Assembly (NCBI GenBank): GCA_002839315.1
Contig: PGXV01000014.1
Location: forward strand, 1-48,205
DNA: 48,205 nt
DNA from: Spirochaetae bacterium HGW-Spirochaetae-3
GTDB taxonomy: Bacteria; Spirochaetota; Spirochaetia; Treponematales; UBA12059
Reading direction: 5' to 3'
The notes under the pieces are model-generated. The model was not told where the DNA came from. It ran no database searches and worked only from the letters and a program-made list of their open reading frames with translations. Shown piece after piece: positions 21,111-47,764 of this stretch. The first letter of the stretch is position 1, and every line of letters starts with the position of its first letter. A program made the position numbers and the translations under genes.

Positions 21111-21183
21111 GGGGAATTAGCTCAGTTGGTAGAGCGATAGGTTCGCAATCTATAGGTCAGGGGTTCGAATCCCCTATTCTCCA
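21111..21183 (+). tRNA. tRNA-Ala (anticodon CGC)
   Basis: A 73-base cloverleaf: acceptor GGGGAAT/ATTCTCC, D arm GCTC/GAGC, anticodon stem ATAGG/TCTAT with loop TTCGCAA, and T arm AGGGG/CCCCT with TTCGAAT. The third acceptor pair is G-T, the G3-U70 alanine identity pair, which confirms the assignment. The discriminator is A and CCA is not encoded. The recombinase gene 148 bases downstream suggests that the 3' end served as an integration site; the tRNA remains whole. Confidence 0.96.
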
Positions 21184-21330: not shown

Positions 21331-22587
21331 ATGGAGCGAGCGAAGCGGCCCTATTCCATTCAAAAGCGCGCGTGCACCAAGAAGAACCGTCACATCTACT
21401 ACGTCCAGTTCAGGCACCCGGAGACTGGCGCGTACATGACCGCCGTATCATCCGGCAAGAGCTCGAAGAGCGAGGCGCTGAACTGGGCCGATGAGCAGCT
21501 CTCCTCCGGCAAGGTCATCGCCGCCGAGAAGAAGGGTATCCTCCTTGAGACCTATGCCCGCGAGTTCTGGGACTGGGACAAGAGCACCTACGTAAAGGGC
21601 AAGCTCCTCCGCAAGCAACGAATCCACCGTACACATGTCGAGAAGAGCGCAGGCTATCTAGAACGCCACGTCCTTCCTTACTTCAAGGGGCGCACCCTTG
21701 CCTCTATAACACCGGGAGAAATCGAGTCCTGGCTTCTTGGCCTTGGGGAGAAGACCGGGCTCAAGGCGCGCTCAGTGAACCTGATCTACACCGCCTTCCG
21801 GACCCTCCTCAAGGAGGCGCACCAACAGGGGATCACCCCCACCGATCCGACCCTCCGCGTCCGTACCCTCGCCGAAGAAAAGAGTTCACGCGGCGTCCTC
21901 TCCATCGCCGAGGCCCAGAAGCTCTTAACCGCCGAGGCGATACCGACTCTCTGGAGGGGGAACTTGCGGCTCTTCGCCGCCAACCTCCTCGCCGCGAGCA
22001 CCGGCATGCGTGAGGGGGAGATCCGGGGACTCCAGATCAGTCAGGTCTTCGCCACCCATATTCATGTGAAGTTCGCCTGGGAGCAAGGGCACGGATTGAA
22101 GGAAGCGAAGTGGGGCTCGATGAGGAACGTCTCCCTGCCCACCTCGGTCGCCGAGGTTCTAAAGAAGCTCATCGAGGCCAGCCCCTACGAAGACCCCACC
22201 GACCTGGTCTTTTATGGCGAGAAGCGTGGCGAGCCACTCCATGCGCGGCTGTTTATCGACTCGCTGTACACTGCGCTCGCGGGCATTGGTATCGACGAGG
22301 AGGCACGCAAGGCGCGCAAGATCGACTTCCATTCATGGCGCCATTTCCTAAACTCGATCAGCCGGGGCCGTGTACCCGACGAGAAGCTCCGTCTGATGAC
22401 CGGGCATCGGAGCGTCGAGATGACCGATCGGTACACGCACTTGCTCGAGGAGGACTACATCGAGATCCGCAAGGTCCAGGACGAGGTCTTCGGCGCGAAA
22501 ACCAGCCAAGCTGGCGGCAATGCGATCGCAACGGAGCCGTCCTCCGCAGGCATATCGACGGAGGACGAGACTGCGGATAGGGAATAA
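21331..22587 (+). CDS. Tyrosine recombinase (phage-type integrase)
   Basis: A 418-residue site-specific recombinase. The N-terminal part has a short DNA-binding domain (IYYVQFRHPETGAYM) and a SAM-like core-binding domain (about 70-165). The catalytic domain holds the full set of active residues: Arg in STGMREGEIRGL, His and Arg in FHSWRHF, His in LMTGHRSVEMT and the nucleophile Tyr in DRYTHL. The gene points away from the tRNA, as in tRNA-integrated islands. TAGGAAGCT precedes the ATG. It converges on the helicase gene with a 28-base gap. It is probably able to act, because no catalytic residue is missing. Confidence 0.92.
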   Translation: MERAKRPYSIQKRACTKKNRHIYYVQFRHPETGAYMTAVSSGKSSKSEALNWADEQLSSGKVIAAEKKGILLETYAREFWDWDKSTYVKGKLLRKQRIHRTHVEKSAGYLERHVLPYFKGRTLASITPGEIESWLLGLGEKTGLKARSVNLIYTAFRTLLKEAHQQGITPTDPTLRVRTLAEEKSSRGVLSIAEAQKLLTAEAIPTLWRGNLRLFAANLLAASTGMREGEIRGLQISQVFATHIHVKFAWEQGHGLKEAKWGSMRNVSLPTSVAEVLKKLIEASPYEDPTDLVFYGEKRGEPLHARLFIDSLYTALAGIGIDEEARKARKIDFHSWRHFLNSISRGRVPDEKLRLMTGHRSVEMTDRYTHLLEEDYIEIRKVQDEVFGAKTSQAGGNAIATEPSSAGISTEDETADRE

Positions 22588-30505: not shown

Positions 30506-31129
30506 TCAACAACAAGCGCCGCCCTTGGTGACACCGTCCACGCCGCGGCAGGGCTCGCCCTTGACTGGAGTGAATCGAGGCGCGGCGGCCTGGCCGCTTG
30601 CCCCGGCGGAAAGAAAGCGTTCAGCGAGGGCGAGCACGGCCTTCGAGGGAGTTTCCTTGACCGCCTGGGCTGTCCTTACGGCGCTCAGCATGTCTTCCTC
30701 CGAGACCCCGAGTTTCCTCGCCTTGTCGAAATGGAACTTGAAACAGGCTTCGCAGTTGGAGGCTATCGCCGCGCCTATGGCCACAAGCTCGGCGGCTGCG
30801 TCGGTATAGAGACTGGGCTCGGGTGCCGCGATGCCTGCCCACTCGGCTAGTTCCGCCCTTGAAGGATAGCGGCCGGTACTCTTGACCAGGTCATCGACCT
30901 TGATGAGGGGAAGGGCTTCCTCGACCGAAGCTTCCAGCGCGGCCCTGACCTGGGCGTCCGCGGCGAAGGTGGCCGGTTGCTGGGCCAGATTGTAGCGCTC
31001 CACCCCCGCCCCCCTGCTCCTGAGCCAATCAAGGTCCGCCGCAAAACGGACAAGCTTTGGGTCCACGGAAGGGCCGCAGACACCGGTAGAGCAACACATC
31101 GCGGGATCGAATACTTTCACGCTGGCCAT
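30506..31129 (-). CDS. arsD: ArsD metallochaperone fused to an AhpD-like (carboxymuconolactone decarboxylase) domain
   Basis: A 207-residue two-domain protein. Residues 1-95 are ArsD: VKVFDPAMCCSTGVCG holds C12, C13 and C18, the positions that carry arsenite in ArsD before handing it to ArsA. Residues about 105-180 are an AhpD/CMD domain with the redox motif CEACFKFH (C126, C129, H133; CxxCxxxH). The tail has C194 and a terminal CC (206-207). The start at 31129 has GGAGG upstream, inside the end of the preceding arsR, with one base between the genes. The CMD half may reduce or regenerate the chaperone or act as a thiol peroxidase; this is inference. Related fusions may exist, but the domain combination is not the standard ArsD. 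Confidence 0.88.
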   Translation of the reverse strand: MASVKVFDPAMCCSTGVCGPSVDPKLVRFAADLDWLRSRGAGVERYNLAQQPATFAADAQVRAALEASVEEALPLIKVDDLVKSTGRYPSRAELAEWAGIAAPEPSLYTDAAAELVAIGAAIASNCEACFKFHFDKARKLGVSEEDMLSAVRTAQAVKETPSKAVLALAERFLSAGASGQAAAPRFTPVKGEPCRGVDGVTKGGACC

Positions 31130-31130
31130 A

Positions 31131-31520
31131 TCAGTCCTCCTGGCATTTCTCGGGCGAATAGGTAGTGTCGGGACAGGGCAGGTCGCGAACGAGTGTCTTG
31201 AGCTGACCGAGCGTGTCCACATTGATGCAGTAGCATACTCGGGGGCCATCGACTTCACCGATAACCAAACCGACCGTCTTCAGGATCCGCAGATGCTCGG
31301 AGACCGTCGACTGGGCCAAGAGCAGTTCGCTGACAATGTCGCCGCATATGCAGGCTTTTCGACTCGCAAGAAGTCGGAGTATCAGGATACGCGCGGGATG
31401 GGCGATTGCCTTGGCGAGGGACGCCAAATCCTCGTCTCCCGCGACAAGCATTGGGGCTGTAGGCAGTTGGTCAGTGGGGGGCTTCAAGGCGACCGACTCG
31501 CAAGAGGTCTTATCGTTCAT
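31131..31520 (-). CDS. arsR: ArsR family repressor heading the arsD-arsA operon
   Basis: A 129-residue winged-helix regulator. The metal site looks like CICGD (C57, C59) at the start of the recognition region, followed by LLLAQSTVSEHLRILKTVGLV. CYCIN and a terminal CPDTTYSPEKC give more cysteines. The promoter -10 box ends 7 bases before the ATG, so transcription probably begins at or next to the start codon, which makes the mRNA leaderless; no ribosome-binding site is seen. A later ATG (residue 24) has none either. One base separates it from arsD. Confidence 0.88.
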   Translation of the reverse strand: MNDKTSCESVALKPPTDQLPTAPMLVAGDEDLASLAKAIAHPARILILRLLASRKACICGDIVSELLLAQSTVSEHLRILKTVGLVIGEVDGPRVCYCINVDTLGQLKTLVRDLPCPDTTYSPEKCQED

Positions 31521-35060: not shown

Positions 35061-36320
35061 TCAAGGCCGAATGGCAACTTTCCGCAAGGCAGGAAGGAAG
35101 CGAGACCTCGACAGGCACCGTAGCGCGATGATGGCGGATAGGATGCGGGCTTCGAGGCCAATCTCTTGTATTCCCAGTCCCCCGCCGACGACTACCACAA
35201 GGCTCAAGATCCCGGCGATGAGGAAGACGCAGGAAGTCGGCATGGCGCGCTTTCGTCCGGCAAGGATAAGTGCAACTAGGGCGAGCGGATTCATCCAAAA
35301 CAGGTTCAGGTTCCACGCCGTCTCCGCGTACCCGGCTAGAAGCCAGAAGGCGACGATGACCAAGGCTCCGAGGAAGCTAGCCGAGAACAATCCAGCATCG
35401 AGTATTCGCGCCAACCAGCTCGAGGGTCGGAAGGATGCGACGATGGCGAGCGCACCCAAGATGAGGATGATGATCCAAGGCGCGCGTGTGTCCTGTAGCT
35501 CCGCACCGTTCCGGGAAGTATGTACGGTGATCGCCTCGATTACCGCTGGACGGCTTCCCGCCGCGTCAACAACTACGCTCATCGCGACCAGGTTCCGAAG
35601 CTGGTCGGGCAGGAATGGCCCCATTTCTAAAGCACTCTTCTCTGCGCTCGGACCCAGCATGAGATCGACCCAGAGTGATAACCATGGGTTGTGTTGGAGA
35701 GCGCGGCGGAGGTGGTCCCGCGTCGTGCCTTCCAAGACGCCTGCTTCTCGCTGAGAAGTCAAGGTGAGCTGAGTTCCGAGCCGCAGCCAAGGCCGAGTCG
35801 CGCAGTTATCGGTGAAGTAACGATAGTTGTAGGTATTCCTTTCGGGCCGAACATCCTCCTCGAGCACTGCGATGATCGCGGCGGCTTCCTCTTTCCCAAA
35901 GGAGAGTACTTGTTCGACTATTGTTCTGTCCTCCACCTGGCTGTAGAACTCATAGGCGTCCGCAGTACGCAGGCGCGCGGCCATGAAAGGCATCTTCCCG
36001 ACCAGCATTCCAAGCGCGAATCTCAGGTCGAAGGGCTCTGCGGAAAGACCGTAGTTATAAAGCAGGTCGGGGCCGCCATTGGGATAGCTGACCCTGATGG
36101 CGGAATGCCCAAACGCGGAGTAGAGGGATCGACCGGGCAGAATGGTGGTAAGCGCGATTCTTGGCCCCCCTTCCGATACATCGCGTTGAGCCGCCAAGGG
36201 ATTCGCGGTTGCGTTCCCGAGATGGGCGCACATGAATAGCATAAACAAAAGACTCCTGTGCCACGAACCTGCCTTCCACGCCCCCTTCTGTGCTCTGGCG
36301 CTTTTTATCCTTCTGCTCAA
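35061..36320 (-). CDS. DUF4105 (Lnb N-terminal periplasmic-type) membrane protein
   Basis: A 419-residue protein. An N-terminal hydrophobic segment (about 23-42) acts as a signal or anchor. The DUF4105 region (about 50-225) has the family pattern LPGRSLYSAFGHSAIRV, LLYNYG, and NTYNYRYFTDNCATRPWLRL, whose His and Cys resemble a papain-like site. Four hydrophobic helices follow at the C-terminus (about 280-410). In relatives this region is linked to surface glycosidase or lipoprotein processing, with little direct evidence. The start is a TTG at 36320 with GGAGG 4 bases ahead. Its promoter overlaps that of the neighbouring metal operon, which suggests shared control. Confidence 0.78.
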   Translation of the reverse strand: MSRRIKSARAQKGAWKAGSWHRSLLFMLFMCAHLGNATANPLAAQRDVSEGGPRIALTTILPGRSLYSAFGHSAIRVSYPNGGPDLLYNYGLSAEPFDLRFALGMLVGKMPFMAARLRTADAYEFYSQVEDRTIVEQVLSFGKEEAAAIIAVLEEDVRPERNTYNYRYFTDNCATRPWLRLGTQLTLTSQREAGVLEGTTRDHLRRALQHNPWLSLWVDLMLGPSAEKSALEMGPFLPDQLRNLVAMSVVVDAAGSRPAVIEAITVHTSRNGAELQDTRAPWIIILILGALAIVASFRPSSWLARILDAGLFSASFLGALVIVAFWLLAGYAETAWNLNLFWMNPLALVALILAGRKRAMPTSCVFLIAGILSLVVVVGGGLGIQEIGLEARILSAIIALRCLSRSRFLPALRKVAIRP

Positions 36321-36344
36321 CTGGCCTCCCTTCCGCTTGCGTGC

Positions 36345-36397
36345 TTGACAAAGGAGCGGATTGGAGGCATATTACACTTAAACGCTTACTTAATCAA
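36345..36397. promoter_or_regulatory. Divergent overlapping promoters of the second ATPase operon and the DUF4105 gene
   Basis: Plus strand: TTGACA (36345-36350), 17 bases, CATATT (36368-36373). Minus strand: TTGATT (36397-36392), 17 bases, TAATAT (36374-36369). The two -10 boxes share five bases, so polymerase can occupy only one at a time. An inverted repeat GCTT-N8-AAGC (36384-36399) lies downstream of the plus promoter and covers the minus -35, a likely site for the ArsR-type repressor encoded next to it. Confidence 0.7.
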
Positions 36398-36425
36398 GCA
36401 ATCGTTAAAGAGAAGGAGTTCTGAC

Positions 36426-36776
36426 ATGAGCGAGGATCTGTGTAGTCAGCATGGAGTTACCTGCGCAGGGGATGCGGAGAAGCTGCGGTCTTCGCTCCTC
36501 GATATCGCGGGCATATCCGAACTCTTCAAGGCGCTAGCAGACGAGACCCGAACGAGGATCCTGCACCTGCTTGGGCAGCGTGAACTCTGCGTTTGCGACC
36601 TAGCGTTCCTCTTGGAGATGACCCTACCGGCGATATCGCACCACTTGCGATTCCTCAGGGCGCTTCGCCTAGTAAAAAGCAGGAAAGAGGGGAAGATGGT
36701 CTTCTACAGCCTCGAAGATGCCCACGTTCTCGCGCTCATCGAGCAAGCGCGGGAACACTACATCGAACGCGTGTAA
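36426..36776 (+). CDS. ArsR/SmtB family metal-responsive repressor (CadC-like), second copy
   Basis: A 116-residue winged-helix repressor. ELCVCDL (C55, C57) plus N-terminal C6 and C13 match the four-Cys site of CadC for Cd and Pb. The recognition part is LLEMTLPAISHHLRFLRALRLV. The start at 36426 has AAGGAG 7 bases upstream; an in-frame upstream ATG at 36258 lies beyond the promoter and inside the divergent gene. The gene ends 18 bases before the P-type ATPase. Confidence 0.9.
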   Translation: MSEDLCSQHGVTCAGDAEKLRSSLLDIAGISELFKALADETRTRILHLLGQRELCVCDLAFLLEMTLPAISHHLRFLRALRLVKSRKEGKMVFYSLEDAHVLALIEQAREHYIERV

Positions 36777-36794
36777 CGGAAAGGAAGGATAGAC

Positions 36795-38957
36795 ATGGCC
36801 AAATACACCATTCAAGGACTCGATTGCGCATCATGCGCGAACGAGATCGAATGCGAACTGAAGAAAACGCCCGGACTTGAGGACGCCCGTCTGAGCTTCG
36901 CCGCCGGTGTCTTGTACATCGACGAGTCCCAGGAAACACGGGCACGGGAAATCATCGAGCGAATGGAACCGGGGGTCACCATCAGCTCGTCACGCTCGTC
37001 GCCTAAACGTGGAAACGGACACGAGCATGCCGACGAAAACGGACATGAACACGGTCACGACCACGGTGGCGAGACCTTCGGGAAGGGCACGCTGATCCGC
37101 ATCGGCATCGCCGCAGCGCTATTCGGTATCGGTACCTTATTCAACGAGGCGTTGCATGTGACGCCCTTCTCGATCGCCGAGTACGCTGTCCTGATCGCGG
37201 CCTACATGCTTGTTGGAGCACCGGTACTCTGGTCAGCAGCGAGAAGCATCGCGCGCGGGCAGGTCTTCAACGAGATGTTCCTCATGAGCGTGGCGACCAT
37301 CGGGGCGATCTTGATCCACCAGCTCCCGGAAGCCGTTGGCGTCATGCTCTTTTACTCCGTCGGGGAATACCTTCAGGACAGGGCGGTCGACAAGTCCCGC
37401 CGTTCGATCTCCGCCCTCATGGATCTGCGTCCCGATTTCGCGAGAGTGGTTGTCGGCTCCGAACGCCGCGAGGTGAGCCCCGAGGAAATCAAGGTCGGGG
37501 ACCTCATCGAAGTACTCCCCGGCGAACGCATCCCGCTCGATGGCTCGGTGGTCGAAGGCTCATCCTTCGTCAACACGGCCTCGCTCACCGGCGAATCGGT
37601 GCCGCGCAAGGTCGAGTCAGGCGACAGCGTCCTGGGTGGATTCGTGAACGACGAGGGAAGAATCGTCGTCCAGGTCGAAAAGGAATTCAGTCAAGGCGCG
37701 GCGGCCAGGATCCTCGAACTCGTGGAAAACGCCTCTGCGCAAAAGGCACCCACGGAGAGATTCATCACGCGCTTCGCCGCGATCTACACTCCGGCGGTCG
37801 TCGTCGTGGCCGCGCTCATCGCCTTCGTCCCGCCGCTCCTGGTTCCCGGCGCAAGGCTCGAGGATTGGGTGTACCGGGCTCTCGTCATGCTGGTGATTTC
37901 CTGCCCCTGCGCTTTGGTCATCTCGATCCCGCTCGGGTACTTCGGAGGAATCGGCGGGGCCTCCAAGAACAAGCTCCTCATCAAGGGCGGCAACTACATA
38001 GATGCCCTCACAAAGGTCGACACGGTGGTCTTCGACAAGACCGGGACCCTCACCGAAGGCGTCTTCACTGTGGTAAAGGTCGAGACTCGCAATGGCTTCA
38101 CGAAGGAAGAACTCCTCGAATGGGCGGCCGCGGCGGAATCGAGTTCCTCGCACCCCATCGCACGCTCGATCAAGGACGCCGCGGGCGGCGTGAAGGACAA
38201 GGCGAGCGATATAATCGAGGTGAAGGGGCATGGAGTACTTGCGAAGGTCGAGGGGCGCAATATCGCGATAGGCAACGACCGACTGATGCACCGCGAGAAT
38301 ATCGTCCATGCGGATTGCGATACTGAGGGAACGGTCGCCTTCGTCGCGGTCGACGGCGTATACGCGGGTCACATCGTCATCTCTGACAAGGTCAAGCCTA
38401 ATGCGGCCGACACCGTCGCGGAGCTGAAGGCCCTCGGGGTACGCAAGGTCGTGATGCTCACCGGCGACGACAAGACTGTCGCCAGAAAAGTCGCGAACGA
38501 AGTCGGACTCGACGCCTTCTACGCCGAGCTCCTCCCGGACGGCAAGGTGGCGAAACTCGAAGCGCTGGAAAAGGATCCGGCCAGGCGGGGCGCCGTGGTA
38601 TTCGTCGGTGACGGCATGAACGACGCCCCCGTGCTCGTGAGGTCGGACGTCGGCTTCGCGATGGGAGGACTCGGGTCCGACGCGGCTATCGAAGCGGCGG
38701 ACGTCGTGGTCATGGACGACCATATCGCGCGCATCCCCCTCGCCATCAGGATCTCGAGATTCACCCGCCGTGTCGTCGTCCAGAACATCGCCATGGCCTT
38801 GGTGGTCAAGGCGGTCTTCCTGAGCCTCGGCGCCCTTGGTGTGGCGAACATGTGGGAAGCCGTCATCGGCGACGTAGGCGTCTCCATCCTGGCGGTCCTC
38901 AACTCGGTGAGGACTTCGGGATATGCCCGTAGGCAGCGCGATGGCGCGGGAAGCTAG
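36795..38957 (+). CDS. zntA: P1B-type Zn/Cd/Pb-translocating ATPase with His-rich linker
   Basis: A 720-residue exporter. One N-terminal metal-binding domain (LDCASCANEIECEL) is followed by a His-rich stretch GHEHADENGHEHGHDHGG (about 76-93), which would bind Zn or Ni. The core has TGESVPRKV, the ion site ISCPCALVISIP, DKTGTLTEG, SSHPIARSI and GDGMNDAPVLV; the last helix has GDVGVS. GGAAGGA precedes the start. It differs from the ATPase at 32204 in the N-terminus and through most of the sequence, so it is not a recent duplicate. It is followed after 4 bases by the transglutaminase-like gene. Confidence 0.94.
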   Translation: MAKYTIQGLDCASCANEIECELKKTPGLEDARLSFAAGVLYIDESQETRAREIIERMEPGVTISSSRSSPKRGNGHEHADENGHEHGHDHGGETFGKGTLIRIGIAAALFGIGTLFNEALHVTPFSIAEYAVLIAAYMLVGAPVLWSAARSIARGQVFNEMFLMSVATIGAILIHQLPEAVGVMLFYSVGEYLQDRAVDKSRRSISALMDLRPDFARVVVGSERREVSPEEIKVGDLIEVLPGERIPLDGSVVEGSSFVNTASLTGESVPRKVESGDSVLGGFVNDEGRIVVQVEKEFSQGAAARILELVENASAQKAPTERFITRFAAIYTPAVVVVAALIAFVPPLLVPGARLEDWVYRALVMLVISCPCALVISIPLGYFGGIGGASKNKLLIKGGNYIDALTKVDTVVFDKTGTLTEGVFTVVKVETRNGFTKEELLEWAAAAESSSSHPIARSIKDAAGGVKDKASDIIEVKGHGVLAKVEGRNIAIGNDRLMHRENIVHADCDTEGTVAFVAVDGVYAGHIVISDKVKPNAADTVAELKALGVRKVVMLTGDDKTVARKVANEVGLDAFYAELLPDGKVAKLEALEKDPARRGAVVFVGDGMNDAPVLVRSDVGFAMGGLGSDAAIEAADVVVMDDHIARIPLAIRISRFTRRVVVQNIAMALVVKAVFLSLGALGVANMWEAVIGDVGVSILAVLNSVRTSGYARRQRDGAGS

Positions 38958-38961
38958 TGCC

Positions 38962-39573
38962 ATGGACGAGCTGCTCGAGAATACCGCTCTCGTGGATTAC
39001 GATCATCCATCGATCCGCGACCTCGTCGCAGGCCGTGGCTGGGTCGCGCTCGACGAAGAAGCGAAGATTCGGAACGCCTACGACTTCGTCCGCGATGAAA
39101 TACCCTTCGGCTACAACAAGGACGACGCGATCCCGGCCTCCCGGGTCCTGGCGCGCCTCCAGAAGGGAGCTCTGAGTGGCATCTGGTATCTCCTCGCCCC
39201 ACGGGAGATCGTTCATAGCTGGGTAGAGGTATCCATTTCGGGGCGATGGATCAATATCGAAGGCTTCATACTCGATATGCCCTACCTCCGTTCGGTTCAA
39301 CGAAAATTCCCCGAAGCCCGAGGGTCCTTCTGCGGCTTTGGCATAGCTACCGATTGCTTCGAATCACCGATGGTCGAATGGACCGGCGGCGATACGTATA
39401 TCCAGAAAGAGGGGATCGTCCGGGATTTCGGAGTATTCGATACGCCCGATGCCTTTTTTAAGGAACACGCGCAAAACCTTAGCTTCCTAAAGAAGCTGGT
39501 ATACAAGTCGATCACCAGGCATGCGATGAATGCCCGAGTCTTCCGGATACGCAGCGGGATGGCGACGAAGTGA
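38962..39573 (+). CDS. Transglutaminase-like protein missing its catalytic segment
   Basis: A 203-residue protein of the transglutaminase-like group with DEIPFGYNKDDAIPASRVLA (about 46-65), HSWVEVSISGRWINIEGF and GGDTYIQKEGI. In full-length relatives, as I know the family, a stretch with the catalytic Cys (GQCNTKG type) and about 30-35 residues lies between SRVLA and LQKGA. Here VLA is joined directly to RLQKGALSG in frame, so the Cys is absent and only His (HSW) and Asp remain. The enzyme is probably inactive, or the gene is the product of a deletion or a mis-assembly. A second partial copy lies at the window end. The next gene starts inside its stop codon (GTGA). Confidence 0.75.
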   Translation: MDELLENTALVDYDHPSIRDLVAGRGWVALDEEAKIRNAYDFVRDEIPFGYNKDDAIPASRVLARLQKGALSGIWYLLAPREIVHSWVEVSISGRWINIEGFILDMPYLRSVQRKFPEARGSFCGFGIATDCFESPMVEWTGGDTYIQKEGIVRDFGVFDTPDAFFKEHAQNLSFLKKLVYKSITRHAMNARVFRIRSGMATK

Positions 39574-40304
39574 CCGGGGAGATATTCGATCCGACGAAGG
39601 AAGCGGAGCGGATACTCATCGTGGAGGACGATACTGCAATCGCGCAGGGTCTCGAATATCAATTGCGAAATGAGCGATATAGGGTTTTCCTTGCGAAGAA
39701 CGGCAAGGAAGCGCTGCAATCCATCCAAAGGGACGATCCGCAGCTGATATTGCTCGATATCAGGCTTCCTGACATGAGCGGTTTCGATATCTGCAAGATT
39801 ATCAGGGCCGAAGGCCGCACAATTCCCATATTGATCCTGTCGGCCCTCGACGGAGAATCCGATCGCGTATTAGGCCTCGAGCTAGGGGCGGACGATTACG
39901 TCTCCAAGCCATACAAACTGAGAGAGGTGATAGCCAGGATCAGGAGCGCGCTGCGGCGCAGCCAATGCTACCTCGGTACGCAATACGCGTCGAGCTCGTT
40001 CGCGTTCGGAGATATTCGCATCGATTTCGCGAAGCTGCGGATAATGAGGGGCGACCGCCCTGTTTCCATGACTCCGGCGGAATTTCACCTGGTTCGGATG
40101 CTGACTTCGACCCCAGGCATGGTTTATTCAAGAGAGATGCTCATCCAAGCAATATACGGGGAATCCCGCTTTCAGGAGGCGCGTTCCATCGACGTCCACA
40201 TGCATCATATTCGCAACAAGCTCGAAGCCGATCCGAAGCATCCCCAATGGTTCCTGACCGTCTATGGATTCGGCTACCGTTTCGCCGACAAAGCGGAGCG
40301 ATGA
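39570..40304 (+). CDS. OmpR-family response regulator
   Basis: A 244-residue regulator with a receiver domain and a winged-helix DNA-binding domain. The receiver shows the acidic pair in ILIVEDDTAIAQ, the phosphorylated Asp in LILLDIRLPDMSG and Lys in YVSKPYK. The effector domain ends with the typical IRNKLEADP and VYGFGYRF. The start is a GTG overlapping the stop of the upstream gene by GTGA, and the end overlaps the kinase gene by ATGA. It probably controls local metal or envelope genes together with the following kinase. Confidence 0.93.
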   Translation: MTGEIFDPTKEAERILIVEDDTAIAQGLEYQLRNERYRVFLAKNGKEALQSIQRDDPQLILLDIRLPDMSGFDICKIIRAEGRTIPILILSALDGESDRVLGLELGADDYVSKPYKLREVIARIRSALRRSQCYLGTQYASSSFAFGDIRIDFAKLRIMRGDRPVSMTPAEFHLVRMLTSTPGMVYSREMLIQAIYGESRFQEARSIDVHMHHIRNKLEADPKHPQWFLTVYGFGYRFADKAER

Positions 40305-41944
40305 GGACGATGCGGATCGGGCGGAAACTGCTGATCGGCTATTTTATCATGGCATTGGTCACGCTCGCGGCGAGCAGCGGAGTTTCCTTCATATTGATTG
40401 AAAGGTACCTGAATGAGCATGAGCGCGAACAGCTCGATTTCAACGTAAAGAATCTCGCCGGACAGATCGCGCCCCTGATGATTCCCACGATGCAGGTCGA
40501 GCGCTTGAAGGACATGGTCGGGATATTGTCGCTATTCGGGGATTTCCGTACGGTAGTGCTCGACAAAAACAGGAACATGGTCATCCAATCCGCTGGCGCT
40601 GATAATGCCATGGCATTCGGCGCTCCGAGCGGAGCCGAGCAGCGTTTCCAGGATACGATCTTCGCGGGGCTTCCCCTCAAGAATACCGAGAAAGTGCTCA
40701 TCGGGCAGGAACCGTCGGGAATTATATGGCATATATCTAGGACTTCCGCGGGCGCGGGAAGTGTAATCGACCTCCGCTACCTTTGTACCTTGGGTACTGG
40801 GAATCAATTCGCTGAGCCTGCGAATGACTTGGCTCTCCGCAACGAGGCGATCGGCGTCAAGACCATCGATAGCTACAATGGCTCTGTTGTTGCCGAAATC
40901 GACGGACCAGCCGCGGTGGCAGGCTATTTGGTGCTATGGCACGTGAACGATCATGTCTCGTCCACGCTACAGTATTTCGGGGCTACGATGCTCGCGACCG
41001 CTGCCGCGGCGGTCTTCCTCGCGACCCTGCTCGGATTCTCGATGAGTAGGGGAATAGTAAAGTCGCTGAAAACCTTCGGTCGGCAAGCGGAAAAGATCGA
41101 AGCAGGCGATTTCAAGGCAAGGGCTACTGTGCCATCCGAGAGTATCCTCGAGATTCGGGAGCTCGCCTCCGGCTTCGATAGGATGGTTTCGACGATCGAG
41201 ATTATGATCCAAGAGAGGGATGCCGACCGAACCGCGCTTCGTAGGTTCGTCGCGGATGCGTCCCACGAGATAAGGACTCCGCTCAGCGCCATATCGAATT
41301 TCGTCGAATTGCTGCAGGGCGCGGCGGCGGAGGATCAAGGCGCTCGTAAGCGATTCCTGTCGGAATGCGAACGACAGGTCGACAGGCTGAACTGGATCAA
41401 CAAGAACCTTCTCGATCTCGCAAGACTCGACTCCGGGATTCAAGTTCTCAACCTGCGCGATTATGGCGTTTCTGACCTTATCCGGGAGGCGATATCGCTA
41501 TCCGCGGCTCGTTTTCCATCGAGAGTGATCGAGGAGAAAATCCCCGATGGAGGCTTGGTCGCGCATTGTGATCGAGAATGGATTCTTGTCGCGCTCTGCA
41601 ACCTCATAGACAATGCCCTCAAGTATTCTTCAGAAGATCGCCGGGTCGAAGTAGGCGCGGCTCTTGGGAAGGAAGGTCGAATCCTGGAGTTGTGGATTCG
41701 CGATGACGGCGAGGGGATAGCCGGGGAGGATCTGCCTCACATTTTCAAGCGCTTCTATCGCGGAAAGACGGGAAAATCCGGGAGCGGCCTCGGTCTGGCC
41801 ATGGCGGAGAGCATCGTCGGACTCCATGGGGGGAGCATTGCCGTCGCCACCGAAATAGATATCGGGAGCAGGTTTTCAATCCTCCTTCCGGTCGTAGCTG
41901 TGCCTGCCGGGCATCCCGATTATTTCGAAACGTTAATATTTTGA
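40301..41944 (+). CDS. Membrane sensor histidine kinase
   Basis: A 547-residue kinase and partner of the regulator just upstream. TM1 lies at about 10-32 and TM2 at about 222-246, enclosing an external sensor of about 190 residues. A HAMP domain follows, with VKSLKTFGRQAEKIEAGDF. The HisKA motif is DASHEIRTPLSAI (His near 325). The ATPase domain has the N box LIDNALKYSS, then DDGEGIAGEDLPHIF, FKRFYRGKTGKSG and GSGLGLAMAESIV. All catalytic motifs are intact. The start at 40301 overlaps the regulator's stop (ATGA). The signal is unknown; metal or envelope stress is suggested only by context. Confidence 0.93.
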   Translation: MRTMRIGRKLLIGYFIMALVTLAASSGVSFILIERYLNEHEREQLDFNVKNLAGQIAPLMIPTMQVERLKDMVGILSLFGDFRTVVLDKNRNMVIQSAGADNAMAFGAPSGAEQRFQDTIFAGLPLKNTEKVLIGQEPSGIIWHISRTSAGAGSVIDLRYLCTLGTGNQFAEPANDLALRNEAIGVKTIDSYNGSVVAEIDGPAAVAGYLVLWHVNDHVSSTLQYFGATMLATAAAAVFLATLLGFSMSRGIVKSLKTFGRQAEKIEAGDFKARATVPSESILEIRELASGFDRMVSTIEIMIQERDADRTALRRFVADASHEIRTPLSAISNFVELLQGAAAEDQGARKRFLSECERQVDRLNWINKNLLDLARLDSGIQVLNLRDYGVSDLIREAISLSAARFPSRVIEEKIPDGGLVAHCDREWILVALCNLIDNALKYSSEDRRVEVGAALGKEGRILELWIRDDGEGIAGEDLPHIFKRFYRGKTGKSGSGLGLAMAESIVGLHGGSIAVATEIDIGSRFSILLPVVAVPAGHPDYFETLIF

Positions 41945-42042: not shown

Positions 42043-43587
42043 ATGAAGATCGCAATACGTGCAATGGATAGAAAAGAAAAAGCAGTGTTGATCACGAACG
42101 GCGCAAATCTAGCCCTTGTCGGGCTGAAGCTTTTCCTATCCGGGGTTTCAGGTAGCGTAGCCCTCAGGGCCAGCGCTTGGCATTCGATAGGCGACGTGTT
42201 CTCGGCTGGCCTCGTATTCGCGGGATACATCGCGGCGAGAATCCTTTCCGGCAAGAAGGGACGGCTCGTCGCCAGCATCGAGAACGGAATAGCCTTGGCC
42301 ATCTCAGGACTGATATTTTACATGGCTTTCGATATCTACAGGGAGGCAGCCTCGGGCAGTCCTGCCGCCGACCTTCGGAATATCTGGCCAGTTACGATCG
42401 CTTCGCTCGCAACGATCGCGATTACCTACTTCACCGCGAGATACAAGGAGTATGTGGGGCGGGCGACGGATTCGATCAGCCTCGTCGCGAGCGGCTATCA
42501 CTCGCGCCTCGACCTCTACGCATCCATCCTTGTCATTGTCAGCCTCGCGTCGTCAGCCCTCGGGCTCGGAGCCCTCGATCGCTTCGCCGCTTTGGTCGTA
42601 TGCCTCCTCGTCGCGATCTCCGGATGGGAGATAGCCTCGCATGCGATCATGGCGTTGACGAGGGGGAACGATCCCGAAAGAGACGCTTCGAGCACGCTTA
42701 TCCATGCACGGATACAAGGTGCGATAAAGGCCGGAGTTGCCATCTTCGGCGTCTTCACCCTACTGAGCGGCTTCACGACTGTTCAGCCTGGAGAGAGCGG
42801 TATCGTGAGGCGCTTCGGACGAACGGTCCGGGATGTTAAGCCGGGCCTCGCGTACAGGCTGCCTTACATTGAGAGACTTGACAAGGTCGCTACCGGAGAA
42901 CTGAGGCAGGTGCGGATCGGCTCCACGCTGGTGTTGACGGGAGATACCAATATCGTGGACGTGGATATGCGCGTCCAATACCGGGTAAGGGATCCGAGGC
43001 AATTCCTTTTCGGAGTGATCCGGCCCGAGGAGCTCGTGGCTAGGAGCGCGGAGGCCGCCATGAGGGAGGCCGTTGCCACCAGGAAGGTGGATGACCTCCT
43101 GGTAGGAAGCCGCGCCGAGATTATCGATAGTGTCGAACTCGAGACGCAAGCGATCCTAGAAGCGAACGCCGCAGGCATCGCAATCGCCTCGGTGCAACTG
43201 GTATCGGTTGCCCCTCCGGCCGACGTGGCGGAGGCGTTCCGCGATGTCGCTAGCGCCAAGGAAGACAAGAGCACCTATATAAGCGAAGCCATAGCCTACC
43301 GTAACGAGATCCTACCCGCTACTCGCGGGGAATCCGCGAAGACAGTCCTTTCGGCCGAGGCCGAGACGAGGAGGAAAATCGACGCCTCCCGGGGCGAGGC
43401 CGATCGCTTCGCCCTTAGGGTGTCGGCCTATGGCTCATCTCCTGAGGTCGCTCGCACCCGGCTGTACATCGAATCCATGGAGAAGGCTCTTCCGAAAGCG
43501 AGGAAGTACATCGTGGATCCTCGGGTAGCAGGCGCCCCAACACAGCTATGGATCTCGCGGGATGCCGTGAATTCGCAGGCACGCTAG
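42043..43587 (+). CDS. Cation diffusion facilitator fused to an HflK-like SPFH domain
   Basis: A 514-residue chimera. Residues about 10-215 are a CDF metal exporter core with six membrane helices. Its ion site is complete: H47 and D51 (WHSIGD) in helix 2 and H153 and D157 (YHSRLD) in helix 5, the His/Asp pattern of Zn exporters. The usual cytoplasmic CDF domain is absent. From about 225 the chain runs into an HflK-like protein: a membrane helix (AGVAIFGVFTLLSGF), then TVQPGESGIVRRFGR, SPFH core (YRVRDPRQFLF, LLVGSRAEI) and a C-terminal coiled coil (about 420-480). HflK normally surrounds the FtsH protease in the membrane. The start at 42043 follows GGAG; a further ATG at 41989 lacks one. The domain order is visible in one open frame with no sign of frameshift. 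Confidence 0.88.
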   Translation: MKIAIRAMDRKEKAVLITNGANLALVGLKLFLSGVSGSVALRASAWHSIGDVFSAGLVFAGYIAARILSGKKGRLVASIENGIALAISGLIFYMAFDIYREAASGSPAADLRNIWPVTIASLATIAITYFTARYKEYVGRATDSISLVASGYHSRLDLYASILVIVSLASSALGLGALDRFAALVVCLLVAISGWEIASHAIMALTRGNDPERDASSTLIHARIQGAIKAGVAIFGVFTLLSGFTTVQPGESGIVRRFGRTVRDVKPGLAYRLPYIERLDKVATGELRQVRIGSTLVLTGDTNIVDVDMRVQYRVRDPRQFLFGVIRPEELVARSAEAAMREAVATRKVDDLLVGSRAEIIDSVELETQAILEANAAGIAIASVQLVSVAPPADVAEAFRDVASAKEDKSTYISEAIAYRNEILPATRGESAKTVLSAEAETRRKIDASRGEADRFALRVSAYGSSPEVARTRLYIESMEKALPKARKYIVDPRVAGAPTQLWISRDAVNSQAR

Positions 43588-43606
43588 AAGCAAGAACCAG
43601 AAGCTG

Positions 43607-43629
43607 CGGGGAGGGCTTAGCTCTTCCCG
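43607..43629 (+). other. Hairpin between the CDF-HflK and HflC genes
   Basis: A 10-bp stem (CGGGGAGGGC/GCTCTTCCCG, two G-T pairs) with loop TTA and no T run. It would lie in the operon mRNA just upstream of the hflC ribosome-binding site and may adjust relative expression or RNA stability. Confidence 0.35.
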
Positions 43630-43659
43630 GAAAACAGATCCCCTGAACCGGAGGAATAC

Positions 43660-44547
43660 ATGACAATCAAGCGCGGACTATCGATCGGAATCCCGGCGCT
43701 CGCGTTTCTGGCGACGACGCTGATCTTCTTTACAGTCGACGTGACCGAGTACACCATCGTGACGCAATTTGGCGCTCCCGTGAAGGTCATCGAGGAACCA
43801 GGCCTATTCGCCAAGATTCCGGACCCCATTCAAAGTCTCATCAGGCTCGATCGAAGGCTTCAGATCTTCAATGGAGCGGAAACGGAATTCCTCACCAAGG
43901 ACAAGAAGAATATTCTCGTGCAGGCCTACGCGACATGGCGGATCAGCGATCCTCTCCAGTTCTTCAAGAGCGTGAGGAACGGCATCGGCGCCAATCTGAG
44001 GCTGGCCGATATCATGACATCCGACCTGGGAGCGATCATCGGACGATACGAATTGGTCGACATGGTGACGACACAACTAGGGCAGACCAAGCTGCCGGCC
44101 CTGAGCGAGGAGGCTACCAAGCTCATCTCGGGCCGGGTGAAGCCATATGGCTATGAAGTGACGGACGTAAGGCTAAAGATGCTCAATTTCCCGGAGGCGA
44201 ACCGCAAGAGCGTATTCCAGCGGATGCGCGCGGAACGACAGCAGATAGCCAGGCAGCTCAGGTCCGAGGGCACCGAAGAATCCACCAAGATCCGAGCGGC
44301 GGCCGACGCTGAGAGGACCACGCTCCTCTCAGCGGCCGCGCGCGACGCTGAAAAGCTCCGCGGACAGGGCGAGGCCGAGGCCGCGAGGATCTACTCGGCC
44401 GCATACGGCAAAGATCCTCAGTTCTACAAGTTCCTGCGATCGCTGGAATCGTACGACAAGGTGATAACTGAAGGGACGACGCTGATCCTTCCCTCGAATT
44501 CGGAGCTCCTTAAATACTTGAATCCGGATGGCAGCGCACTGCGGTAG
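43660..44547 (+). CDS. hflC: HflC-like SPFH protein
   Basis: A 295-residue protein with an N-terminal membrane helix (about 7-26) followed by the SPFH/band 7 domain. Family sections are VDVTEYTIVTQFGAPVKVI, PGLFAKIPDPIQSLIRLDRR, ILVQAYATWRISDPLQFF, and YGYEVTDVRLKMLNFPEAN. The C-terminal coiled coil and YSAAYGKDPQFYKFLRSLESY match HflC. In E. coli HflC pairs with HflK into a large ring that modulates FtsH. Here it lies between two HflK-like genes. GGAGG is found ahead of the ATG. Confidence 0.9.
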   Translation: MTIKRGLSIGIPALAFLATTLIFFTVDVTEYTIVTQFGAPVKVIEEPGLFAKIPDPIQSLIRLDRRLQIFNGAETEFLTKDKKNILVQAYATWRISDPLQFFKSVRNGIGANLRLADIMTSDLGAIIGRYELVDMVTTQLGQTKLPALSEEATKLISGRVKPYGYEVTDVRLKMLNFPEANRKSVFQRMRAERQQIARQLRSEGTEESTKIRAAADAERTTLLSAAARDAEKLRGQGEAEAARIYSAAYGKDPQFYKFLRSLESYDKVITEGTTLILPSNSELLKYLNPDGSALR

Positions 44548-44591
44548 GCGTGCTGCGCAAAAATGGAAACGAACATCTGGAGGAGCGCTAC

Positions 44592-45758
44592 ATGAGCGAA
44601 GACGGCAAGAGAAACGATATTGAAGAGACGATGACCGAGGATAAAGGCACATCTGCGAACGCGAGGGGAAAGCGGCAAAGTATTCTAGAGCTATTGCGCG
44701 CTCTTTCCGCGACGGTATTCGGATTCTTGAAGAATTTCCTGCTTGATAAGGATAATTCCGCCCGAAGGGATCTCCTCCAGGCATTCAGGCATATAAGGCC
44801 TCGAAAGGTGCTCCTCGGGCTCCTCGGGCTTGCCGTGGCCTTCTATGCCCTCTCGGGAGTCTTCACCGTGCAGCCGGGCGAGATGGGGGTGATACGGACC
44901 TTGGGGCGGATCTCGGATCCCGCGGTACCAGAAGGCCTCCATTACAGGCTGCCCTGGCCCTTCGCCAGGGAGGACGTAGTGAACATCTCCGAGGTGAGGC
45001 GGGAGACGATCGGCCTTGAGAGCGGCGAGCCCGAGCATACCGATCATTCGGAAGGTCCGGGTAAAATCCAGGTATTGAGCGGCGATACGAATATCGTGGA
45101 TTACGTGGTCGTCGTTCAGTACAAGGTCAAGGATCCCGCCGCTTATCTATTCAACGCCAATATCGCCCAATACCAGCTCGTGAGGGATTCACTCCGCGCG
45201 GCGCTGACCAAGCTGAGCGGCTCCATCCCCGTAGACGATATACTCGTCTCGAAACGGCAAGCCATGCTAGCCGACCTCAGGTCGGAGATGCAGCTCCTCC
45301 TCGACGCCTACGGCAGCGGTGTAGGCGTCGTGAGCGTCAACTTCCAAAAGGCCTATCCGCCCGACGAGGTCGCCGACGCATTCCAGGATGTTCAAAGCTC
45401 GAAGGAAGACAAGGAAAAGGCGATCAACCAAGCCATCGGTTACCAGAATAGCCTGTTGCCCGAGGCTAGGGGACAGGCCGCGCGCACGATGGCGGAGGCC
45501 GAGGCCTTCGCGCGGGCCGTCGTGGATAGCTCCAGGGGCGCTGCATCCTCGTTCGAAGGCATCCTCGCGCAATTCAGGAAGGATAAGCAGGTCTATGGCG
45601 AGGATGTGACCCGGTTCAGGCTCTATCTCGAGTCGATGGAAAAAGTCATGAAACGCGTACGAACCTATGTCATCGAGAAAGGCGGTAAATTGGATCTCCG
45701 CATGATCGAATCGGCCGATGGGAAACAGGGGATTCCCATGGCTGGAGGTTTGCGGTGA
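44592..45758 (+). CDS. hflK: HflK-like SPFH protein
   Basis: A 388-residue protein. An acidic N-terminal region (about 1-60) is followed by one membrane helix (LLGLLGLAVAFYALSG, about 75-92). The SPFH domain has TVQPGEMGVIRTLGR, HYRLPWPFAREDVVN, GDTNIVDYVVVVQYKVKDP, and SVNFQKAYPPDEVADAFQDV. The C-terminal coiled coil is normal for HflK. The start at 44592 follows GGAGGAG; an in-frame ATG at 44550 is less well placed. Its end overlaps the isomerase gene by GTGA. It shares the GDTNIVD, QPGE and SSKEDK-type sections with the HflK half of the upstream fusion, so the two are related paralogues. Confidence 0.9.
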   Translation: MSEDGKRNDIEETMTEDKGTSANARGKRQSILELLRALSATVFGFLKNFLLDKDNSARRDLLQAFRHIRPRKVLLGLLGLAVAFYALSGVFTVQPGEMGVIRTLGRISDPAVPEGLHYRLPWPFAREDVVNISEVRRETIGLESGEPEHTDHSEGPGKIQVLSGDTNIVDYVVVVQYKVKDPAAYLFNANIAQYQLVRDSLRAALTKLSGSIPVDDILVSKRQAMLADLRSEMQLLLDAYGSGVGVVSVNFQKAYPPDEVADAFQDVQSSKEDKEKAINQAIGYQNSLLPEARGQAARTMAEAEAFARAVVDSSRGAASSFEGILAQFRKDKQVYGEDVTRFRLYLESMEKVMKRVRTYVIEKGGKLDLRMIESADGKQGIPMAGGLR

Positions 45759-47764
45759 GCTCTGATGGCCCGGATCCCGTAGGTATTTCATCGGATAGCG
45801 TTATCGCCTCTATGGAAGAGGGTATCGCTATCGTCCCTCCGATCTCCGACGAAGACGCGATCCTCCGAAAAAAGCGAAAGTACGCGAGGCGCGTCCGCAC
45901 GATCGCGATCCTAGGATCCCTGTCCGTGCTGATCGTTGTAGTCGTGCAATTCCGAGAGAGCATATTCAGGCCAAGACCGCCCTCGCCCGAAATCGCGGCG
46001 ACCTTCACCGGGGGACAAATTACCGTCGCGGACATCCGCGCCCATTTTGACCTTCTGGCGGGCGGTTCTGGGGCCGACAAGCCGCAATTGACATTCAAGA
46101 CCGCGAAGGCAGTCGCGCAAGAGATGATCACTGACGAGATACTGCGAAAATGGGGAAAGAGCCGCAAGGCCGACAAGGACGAGAATATCGGGCACCTGAT
46201 GTCTCATGTCAACGAGGAGGTGAACCTCAGCGCCTGGCATTCCGGAATGCACGACGGTTCCATGGGCATCAACGAAAGCGATATAGACGCTTATTACCGA
46301 GCGAATCGGCAGGCGTACGGCGAAAAGACTCTCGGCGAGGTGCGCGGCGAGATCGAAAAAATCCTCAAGGCGCAGGGCGAGGACCGCTTCGTCGAGAACT
46401 TCCTGGCCGGCCTCAAGAATACGGCGGACATTCGCCGCAATTACGATGCGCTCAATGTCCCCGACCTCGAGCAATCCGAGATATTGGACTACTACGAGAG
46501 GAATCGCGATCGCTTCACACTGCCGGCCCGATTTACCGCCGATGTGATTAGGATCGACCTGCCTGGGAGCGATGCGGATATCGCGGCCTCTCGGATTATC
46601 GAGAAAGCGCGGTCTGGCATCAAGCTTGTCGAGGCTGCACGGAAAGAAGGGAATTCGTTCTTCATCAGCGAAGGGGAAATATTCGAAAAGGGAACCATGG
46701 AGCAAGCTTTTGAAAAACGCATAATTCCACTCGAAGTCGGTCAGATAAGCGAGCCCTTCCGCCACGCGGGATCGACCTTTATCGTTAGCGTTTCGAATCG
46801 CGATGGGGAGCGGAAGCTCGGATTCGACGAGGCCGAACCGATGGCGAGGCGGGCCGCCGCGCTTGAGAAGCAAAATACATGGTTCACCAGCAACCGCGAC
46901 CTTGCACTCTTCTCCGTCGGCGGGAAGCGGCTGAGTCTCGGCGAATTCTGGACCGAGTACGGGGAGTTGCCCCACGATCTGGCGGCTAAATACGCCGGAA
47001 GCTCGGGGATGGCGAAATTGGCCGAGGCTTTGCTCGATAGATATCTCGTCGCCGAGGAAGCTTCGCGTGGGGGGGCAACTGCGTCGGAGGGCTCTGTTCG
47101 CGCCGAGGAGGCTCGCTTGAAACTGCTCGCCGAGATGATGGAAAAAGAGGAAATCGACGACAAGGTCTCGGTGAGCGAAGAAGAGATAGCCGGCTACTTC
47201 AAGGCAAACAAGAGGAAATACGTGATTCCACCGCAATCGAAGATCCGGCGGATCGCGATTAAGCTTGAGGAATCGGAAGAAGGGAGGCGAGCGGCCTGGC
47301 GCCGGGCCGAGGAAGCGTATACGCGGCTGGCGCCAGGCCTTTTCAGGAAACCAGCGGATTTTGCCGAGATAGCCGGTCAATACGACATGGCCGCGCTCGA
47401 AGGCAGCGGATGGACAGGCGATGCGATCTGGATCGGCGAAGGCAGAGACTTCCTAAGCGAGGTGCGCGACCACGAATTTCATGAGATCGTGAAGAAGATT
47501 CCGCTCGGCGGAATAGGGAAGCCGTTTCTACTAAAAGATCGGATTTATATAGTCCAGGTCGTAGAGCGATCAAAACCCGAGTCCATTGACATCGAGGAAG
47601 CGAAGGGCGCTATTCGGGAGGAATTGACCGCGCGCAAGCATGAGGAACTCGGGAAGGCCTTCTCGAAACGCATGTTGAGAGAAAACAAAGCCATTATATA
47701 CGACCAAGTGCTTCGCACTCTGATAACCGATGATCAAGAAAAGCAGAAGAAAACTGCAGAATAG
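45755..47764 (+). CDS. Membrane-anchored PpiD/SurA-like peptidyl-prolyl isomerase
   Basis: A 669-residue protein with a single membrane helix at about 49-66 (IAILGSLSVLIVVVVQF) and a large external or periplasmic part. After a SurA-type N-terminal helical region (FTGGQITVADIRAHFDLL) come two parvulin-like segments. One lies at about 250-350 (FTADVIRIDLPGSD, ISEPFRHAGSTFIVSVSNR) and one at about 490-620 (RRIAIKLEESEEG, FAEIAGQYD, IGKPFLLKDRIYIVQVVE). A charged C-terminal helix ends it. Such proteins fold or hold outer-membrane and periplasmic proteins. The GTG start overlaps the hflK stop. In this operon it is probably a chaperone partner of the HflK/HflC assembly; this is inference from position. 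Confidence 0.82.
   Translation: MSSDGPDPVGISSDSVIASMEEGIAIVPPISDEDAILRKKRKYARRVRTIAILGSLSVLIVVVVQFRESIFRPRPPSPEIAATFTGGQITVADIRAHFDLLAGGSGADKPQLTFKTAKAVAQEMITDEILRKWGKSRKADKDENIGHLMSHVNEEVNLSAWHSGMHDGSMGINESDIDAYYRANRQAYGEKTLGEVRGEIEKILKAQGEDRFVENFLAGLKNTADIRRNYDALNVPDLEQSEILDYYERNRDRFTLPARFTADVIRIDLPGSDADIAASRIIEKARSGIKLVEAARKEGNSFFISEGEIFEKGTMEQAFEKRIIPLEVGQISEPFRHAGSTFIVSVSNRDGERKLGFDEAEPMARRAAALEKQNTWFTSNRDLALFSVGGKRLSLGEFWTEYGELPHDLAAKYAGSSGMAKLAEALLDRYLVAEEASRGGATASEGSVRAEEARLKLLAEMMEKEEIDDKVSVSEEEIAGYFKANKRKYVIPPQSKIRRIAIKLEESEEGRRAAWRRAEEAYTRLAPGLFRKPADFAEIAGQYDMAALEGSGWTGDAIWIGEGRDFLSEVRDHEFHEIVKKIPLGGIGKPFLLKDRIYIVQVVERSKPESIDIEEAKGAIREELTARKHEELGKAFSKRMLRENKAIIYDQVLRTLITDDQEKQKKTAE

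Follow-up and report, generated by a model that had tools for sequence, protein, structure and literature searches.

A mobile, metal-linked gene cassette carries a cation diffusion facilitator-HflK fusion with HflC, a second HflK, and a peptidyl-prolyl isomerase

Introduction

Rings of SPFH-domain proteins are widespread, and their contents and purpose are debated. In Escherichia coli, 24 alternating HflK and HflC subunits surround FtsH, and a nautilus form has been described (PMC12048511). What role could be played by an HflK that is joined to a cation diffusion facilitator (CDF)? This question is raised by a 48,205-nucleotide stretch of DNA from Spirochaetae bacterium HGW-Spirochaetae-3 (contig PGXV01000014.1, positions 1 to 48,205), referred to here as the window. 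It contains four intact open reading frames (ORFs), back to back on the plus strand, for a CDF-HflK fusion, HflC, a second, unfused HflK, and a membrane-anchored peptidyl-prolyl isomerase (PPIase). An earlier note, made from the sequence alone, had described them as one operon for a possible metal-linked membrane quality control complex. These genes recur in distant bacteria, both on a plasmid and within elements that resemble prophages, and this recurrence suggests that they encode a real metal stress machine.

Results

The gene content described in the earlier note was borne out. All four genes are intact, three of them encode SPFH domains, and the gaps between them are 72, 2 or 44 (depending on the start of the second HflK), and -4 bases. 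All three SPFH proteins exceed the equivalog cut-offs for HflK or HflC (Table 1). The proposed four-gene operon is real as a set of neighbors but is part of a larger unit, with five more genes on the same strand upstream (36258-41944). The nine co-oriented genes are arsR, a zntA-like gene, a transglutaminase-like gene, a response regulator, a kinase, CDF-hflK, hflC, hflK, and the PPIase gene. A run of Ns appears to follow the window end (contig C15, just past 48205), so the sequence 3' of the PPIase gene is not continuous with the window.

The first gene encodes a CDF-HflK fusion, as had been claimed: a Cation_efflux domain (PF01545, residues 39-223, 65.2 bits, cut-off 26.6) precedes a Band_7/HflK domain (PF01145, residues 264-434, 84.9 bits). 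An artefact joining two genes was ruled out by the existence of six independent fusions. Orthologues start at or near 42043/42064, which makes the start at 42043 plausible. A scan of hydrophobic segments yielded six plus one helices, with a helix merged or missed in some sequences; the SPFH domain of the fusion is therefore expected to be periplasmic, as in HflK. The CDF match stops near residue 233, and the cytosolic CDF C-terminal domain is absent. Its place is taken by the HflK anchor helix, which begins near residue 244 and aligns with HflK residues 81-125. In a CDF profile alignment, H65/D69/H171/D175 of the fusion correspond to D47/D51/H155/D159 of metal site A in FieF/YiiP, and such an HD-HD set is typical of Zn-type CDFs. 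All four ligands are kept in five of the six fusions, which are divergent (34-56% identity to that of the window). The predicted structure of the fusion (three rows; mean predicted local distance difference test [pLDDT] score, 47.8) was too poor for use.

The PPIase matches PF13145 in two stretches (81.9 bits, cut-off 27), and its single hydrophobic segment is an N-terminal membrane anchor. Its profile matches the structures of Campylobacter cell-binding factor 2, PrsA, and Helicobacter pylori HP_0175. The earlier note had called it a PpiD/SurA-like isomerase; the resemblance to SurA/PrsA-type parvulins stands, and that to PpiD is not clear. It scores far under the cut-offs of known PPIase equivalogs and forms a family of its own, which occurs only alongside the cassette in 395 genomes of the class. 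Its predicted structure was unusable (mean pLDDT, 40).

The fusion, HflC, HflK, and PPIase genes occur together in five loci: the window, an IMG/VR contig, genome G257 (with near-identical copies in G342 and G207), genome G583, and an Aquibium plasmid. The SPFH trio is present in a sixth, G456. The possibility that this gene order exists only in the window's contig was thereby ruled out by four further complete loci, and chance association is excluded by the recurrence in five independent loci and of the trio in the sixth. Fusion and PPIase co-occur in all five complete loci, and a PPIase profile search of the class genomes returned exactly the four with the fusion. Because three of those four stem from one recent transfer, they represent only two independent events. 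Every complete locus also has a metal P1B ATPase and a two-component system; arsR is found in four of five, and lnb and transglutaminase-like genes are each found in three. The closer counterpart of the Aquibium P1B ATPase is the other ATPase of the window. The link to metal genes that the earlier note proposed is thus strengthened by the ATPases, by the CadC-like ArsR, by the promoter with an operator-like repeat described below, and by the CDF site. On the whole, the interpretation in that note is supported in part.

Metal exporter genes and SPFH/PPIase genes might merely hitchhike on shared mobile elements, with no joint function. Gene order does differ among loci, and other metal genes are present at every locus examined in a mobile context. 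Nevertheless, the same set has been kept across Spirochaetota and Alphaproteobacteria despite the reshuffling, the CDF and HflK parts are covalently joined and have one origin, and the PPIase is found solely with the fusion in the class genomes. We consider hitchhiking highly improbable.

Phylogenetic trees point to co-inheritance of the SPFH genes. In a tree of HflK sequences, the six fusions cluster in a single clade (support, 97/98), as do their six unfused partners in another (100/99); the two clades group with support of 91/91 when the IMG/VR rows are included and 96/95 when they are left out. Likewise, a single clade holds the six cassette HflCs (99/98). Chromosomal HflK and HflC of the host fall outside the cassette clades, so the idea that the trio is a duplicate of the host's hflKC pair was rejected. 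The simplest reading of these sequences would be a single hflK duplication and a single fusion event, with the set inherited together.

Searches for full-length fusions gave 6 genomes among those drawn from the phylum, 1 of 72,556 plasmid records, and none of 398 Pseudomonadota genomes, so the system is rare. Six CDF-half matches in the Pseudomonadota genomes were not counted, as their C-terminal region differs and is not HflK. Apart from the fusions, no closer CDF-half matches were seen than these six CDF proteins (L039-L044) with their unusual region. A single-protein search of genome contigs matched only an ordinary Idiomarina hflK. Other plasmid-borne hflKC genes (Tistrella, Vibrio, Phaeobacter, Sinorhizobium, and E. 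coli) were rejected as ordinary pairs without a CDF fusion or PPIase; on the Vibrio plasmid, hflK-hflC is directly followed by nhaA (L046:7854-11223), another ion transporter beside accessory hflKC. A Nitratireductor plasmid retains the PPIase end and the ATPase and has no SPFH genes, which were apparently lost through deletion. There a single chimeric ORF (L036:11707-13263) seems to combine the PPIase end with the beginning of a different gene, probably that of the kinase.

The cassette is found in several mobile contexts. In the window, a tyrosine integrase gene comes after a tRNA-Ala gene (21111-21183), the last 42 bases of which recur exactly farther along the contig (Table 1); the cassette thus sits in an island that spans about 80 kb. 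More integrase-like ORFs lie just past the right end of the island. In G257, G342, and G207, three spirochaete species of two genera, the cassette DNA is 99.1-99.97% identical over 17-19 kb; across the lnb-to-kinase stretch of nine genes, G257 and G342 differ at one base. The G257 cassette looks like prophage cargo because a serine integrase gene and portal, terminase, and capsid genes flank it. The IMG/VR cassette lies between a weak head-tail adaptor match and a weak tail match, and the Aquibium cassette is borne by a conjugative plasmid.

The ArsR of the window has CxC and DxH...HxxE motifs, as in CadC/SmtB-type sensors. Upstream of arsR, a promoter is followed by an inverted repeat. The same layout is present in G257 and G583, and a similar one is readable in the IMG/VR locus. 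The repeat in G583 is perfect over 14+14 bases (0/500 shuffles). Judging from these sequences, the repeat is a probable ArsR operator and the gene set is probably switched by metal. Among the neighboring genes, the window's transglutaminase-like gene has lost about 32 residues in frame; the lost segment includes what is probably the catalytic Cys, which lies within GYGQCNTKG at the G583 and IMG/VR loci. An ORF in the ars cluster of the window (30506-31258) encodes two domains, ArsD and then carboxymuconolactone decarboxylase (AhpD-like).

The earlier note held that a chromosomal ftsH would have to serve the complex. No ftsH is present in the window, and the host genome has two FtsH proteins over the cut-off, encoded elsewhere; each of the other spirochaete genomes with the fusion has at least one. 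Near relatives without the cassette mostly have two as well, so the host's second FtsH is not tied to the cassette. The host's own hflK-hflC pair is separate and chromosomal (contig C3). Three FlaA matches in the host genome, against none in any of 14 control genomes, make a spirochaete the most likely host.

Table 1. Features of the window and gene order at related loci (RR, response regulator; HK, histidine kinase; TGL, transglutaminase-like gene; IS, insertion sequence)
Feature	Position	Strand	Evidence or remarks
CDF-HflK fusion	42043..43587 (ORF opens 41989)	+	PF01545, PF01145, TIGR01933 (213 bits, cut-off 159), helix scan, six homologues; CDF six-helix domain, HflK anchor helix, SPFH domain
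HflC	43660..44547	+	TIGR01932, 205 bits (cut-off 134); tree
Unfused second HflK	44592..45758 (ORF opens GTG 44550)	+	TIGR01933, 198 bits (cut-off 159); tree
PPIC-type PPIase, two parvulin-like stretches	45755..47764	+	PF13145, SurA/PrsA-type profile match, one hydrophobic segment
Sensor histidine kinase	40301..41944	+	HAMP, HisKA, HATPase_c; matches the G583 and IMG/VR kinases over its full length
Response regulator, OmpR/PhoB type	39570..40304	+	61% to IMG/VR locus, 54% to G583
Transglutaminase-like protein	38923..39573	+	55% to G583 homologue with PF01841; without likely Cys segment
Zn/Cd/Pb-type P1B ATPase (ZntA-like)	36795..38957	+	TIGR01512, 504 bits (cut-off 313.5)
ArsR-family repressor, CadC/SmtB-like motifs	36426..36776 (ORF opens 36258)	+	PF01022; 77% to IMG/VR, 76% to G583 homologues
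Promoter TTGACA-17-CATATT, then imperfect inverted repeat (putative ArsR operator)	36344..36415 (repeat at about 36376-36415)	+	Sequence, shuffles
Lnb-like lipoprotein-modifying enzyme, divergent from arsR	35061..36320	-	PF13387, PF25221; also in G257 and G583
Tyrosine integrase of island	21331..22587	+	PF00589
Left 42-bp repeat (3' end of tRNA-Ala)	21142..21183	+	Right copy C15:101201-101242
IMG/VR UViG_2751185592_000002 (phage-like)			RR-HK-CDF-hflK-hflC-hflK-PPIase-arsR-zntA-TGL; fusion 55%, HflC 75% identity to window
G257 and two copies			arsR-zntA-CDF-hflK-hflC-hflK-PPIase-RR-HK
G583 (spirochaete)			lnb-RR-HK-PPIase-CDF-hflK-hflC-hflK-arsR-zntA-TGL
Aquibium plasmid			RR-HK-[IS element]-CDF-hflK-hflC-hflK-PPIase-P1B
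G456			SPFH trio on 5.3-kb contig

Discussion

Our best explanation is a mobile, metal-inducible envelope stress cassette whose products may form an accessory HflK/C-type assembly with an attached exporter and a periplasmic chaperone; as a whole, we regard it as evenly poised between right and wrong. Its parts differ in strength. That the genes form a conserved metal stress cassette is very likely, judging by regulation and co-inheritance read from sequence. A mixed assembly of the SPFH proteins is likely by the precedent of HflK/C (PMC12048511), and the conserved site A makes metal transport by the CDF part of the fusion fairly likely. Use of FtsH by the cassette, the weakest step, is somewhat doubtful.

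Under this explanation, Zn, Cd, or Pb would free ArsR, and the P1B ATPase and the SPFH proteins would be expressed. HflC would alternate with both types of HflK in an accessory HflK/C-like dome, part of whose wall subunits would bear a Zn-type CDF exporter in place of a bare anchor helix. The exporter would take metal from the cytosol outward at the membrane patch of the dome, while the PPIase would keep or refold proteins on the periplasmic side. Host FtsH may sit inside the dome and remove damaged membrane proteins. In its most specific form, in which CDF-HflK wall subunits pump Zn or Cd into or beside a walled periplasmic chamber and the PPIase and host FtsH handle the metal-damaged proteins, the model is speculative and rather unlikely. 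If that form is true, one machine would handle both transport and the quality control of membrane proteins, and it would be carried by phages, islands, and plasmids.

Several observations weigh against this explanation. The inverted repeat upstream of arsR is modest in the window (11/500 shuffles) and not significant in G257 (99/500), and the G257 and Aquibium kinases match that of the window in the kinase core only. The fusion falls under the cut-off of the CDF model TIGR01297 (66.5 versus 82.35), and the most divergent fusion, in G456, has lost site A and kept the fusion, so transport is not universal among the fusions. The G456 fusion (L022:213-2633) has 806 amino acids, with an extra N-terminal membrane part of about 270 residues that weakly matches DUF7847. 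Loss of site A, absence of the cytosolic CDF domain, and the presence of a dedicated P1B exporter in the cassette would fit a reading in which the CDF part no longer exports and instead serves the dome either as a metal sensor, signaling metal to it, or as a membrane anchor, positioning it. Yet all four site A ligands persist in the five other fusions despite their divergence. Moreover, the C-terminal domain is typical of CDFs and not universal, and some CDFs without it still transport. A sensor or anchor role is therefore, in our view, quite unlikely.

Two further points against concern FtsH: ftsH is in none of the cassettes examined, and an Arg near the reported FtsH contact is found in none of five unfused HflKs compared. 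The residue of HflK reported to contact FtsH is Arg191 (PMC12048511); the 419-residue E. coli HflK sequence has Ala191 and Arg193, which does not match that numbering. An Arg is present at E. coli column 193 in five of six fused HflKs, and the HflCs of ordinary pairs likewise have one there. With this mismatch (191 versus 193) and the Arg of ordinary HflCs, the column weighs little. Both points would suit an FtsH-independent, flotillin-like scaffold in which the SPFH trio would organize an area of membrane and gather the CDF domain and P1B exporters there, with no role in proteolysis. So would the divergence of the cassette SPFH set from the host's own hflKC and the exporter genes that always adjoin it. 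However, all three SPFH proteins fit HflK/HflC models and not flotillin models, the chaperone-type PPIase that is always present fits quality control, and most fusions keep the Arg column. We think such a scaffold unlikely.

An accessory HflK/C-type assembly of this kind would resemble known systems only in part. It shares with E. coli FtsH-HflK/C (7VHP, 7WI3) its HflK/HflC-type subunits by equivalog models, adjacent genes, inferred topology, and a host FtsH, but its HflK occurs as two paralogues, of which one is joined to a CDF transporter; it also has a PPIase partner and no linked ftsH, and its operon is mobile and metal-linked. The six-helix domain of the fusion resembles CDF zinc exporters (YiiP/FieF and ZnT), with site A aligning ligand by ligand; unlike them, it is joined to HflK in place of a cytosolic C-terminal domain, and one lineage is without the site. 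The PPIase has the PPIC-type domains, SurA/PrsA-like flanks, and N-terminal anchor of SurA/PrsA/PpiD parvulins, from which its separate family and restriction to the cassette distinguish it.

The cassette would also be a mobile protein quality control island, like the tLST, which contains sHsp20, ClpG/ClpK, FtsH, YfdX, KefB, and DegP, with no HflK/HflC as described (PMC8290217). Membership in the tLST/TLQC was rejected: none of the core genes clpG/clpK, sHsp20, ftsH, yfdX, kefB, and degP was among the cassette genes scanned. Lnb-like genes beside three of the five cassettes (window, 35061-36320; L018:5299-6675; L021:15905-17239) recall the copper-induced mobile Lit of Listeria, a metal resistance element with a lipoprotein-modifying enzyme (PMC12345273). 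The Lnb-like enzyme belongs to a different family, however, and the Lit element is without SPFH genes. The earlier note knew of no system of this composition, and the literature searched, in which subscription papers were thinly covered, likewise held no description and none joining HflK, cation diffusion facilitator, and fusion.

Where an exporter is naturally fused to a ring subunit, and two phyla have retained the fusion together with its partners, one membrane client is bound covalently to the ring. Such a fusion makes testable whether SPFH rings organize transporters, control FtsH, or do both. If the explanation favored here is true, metal resistance and membrane protein repair would travel as one mobile unit.

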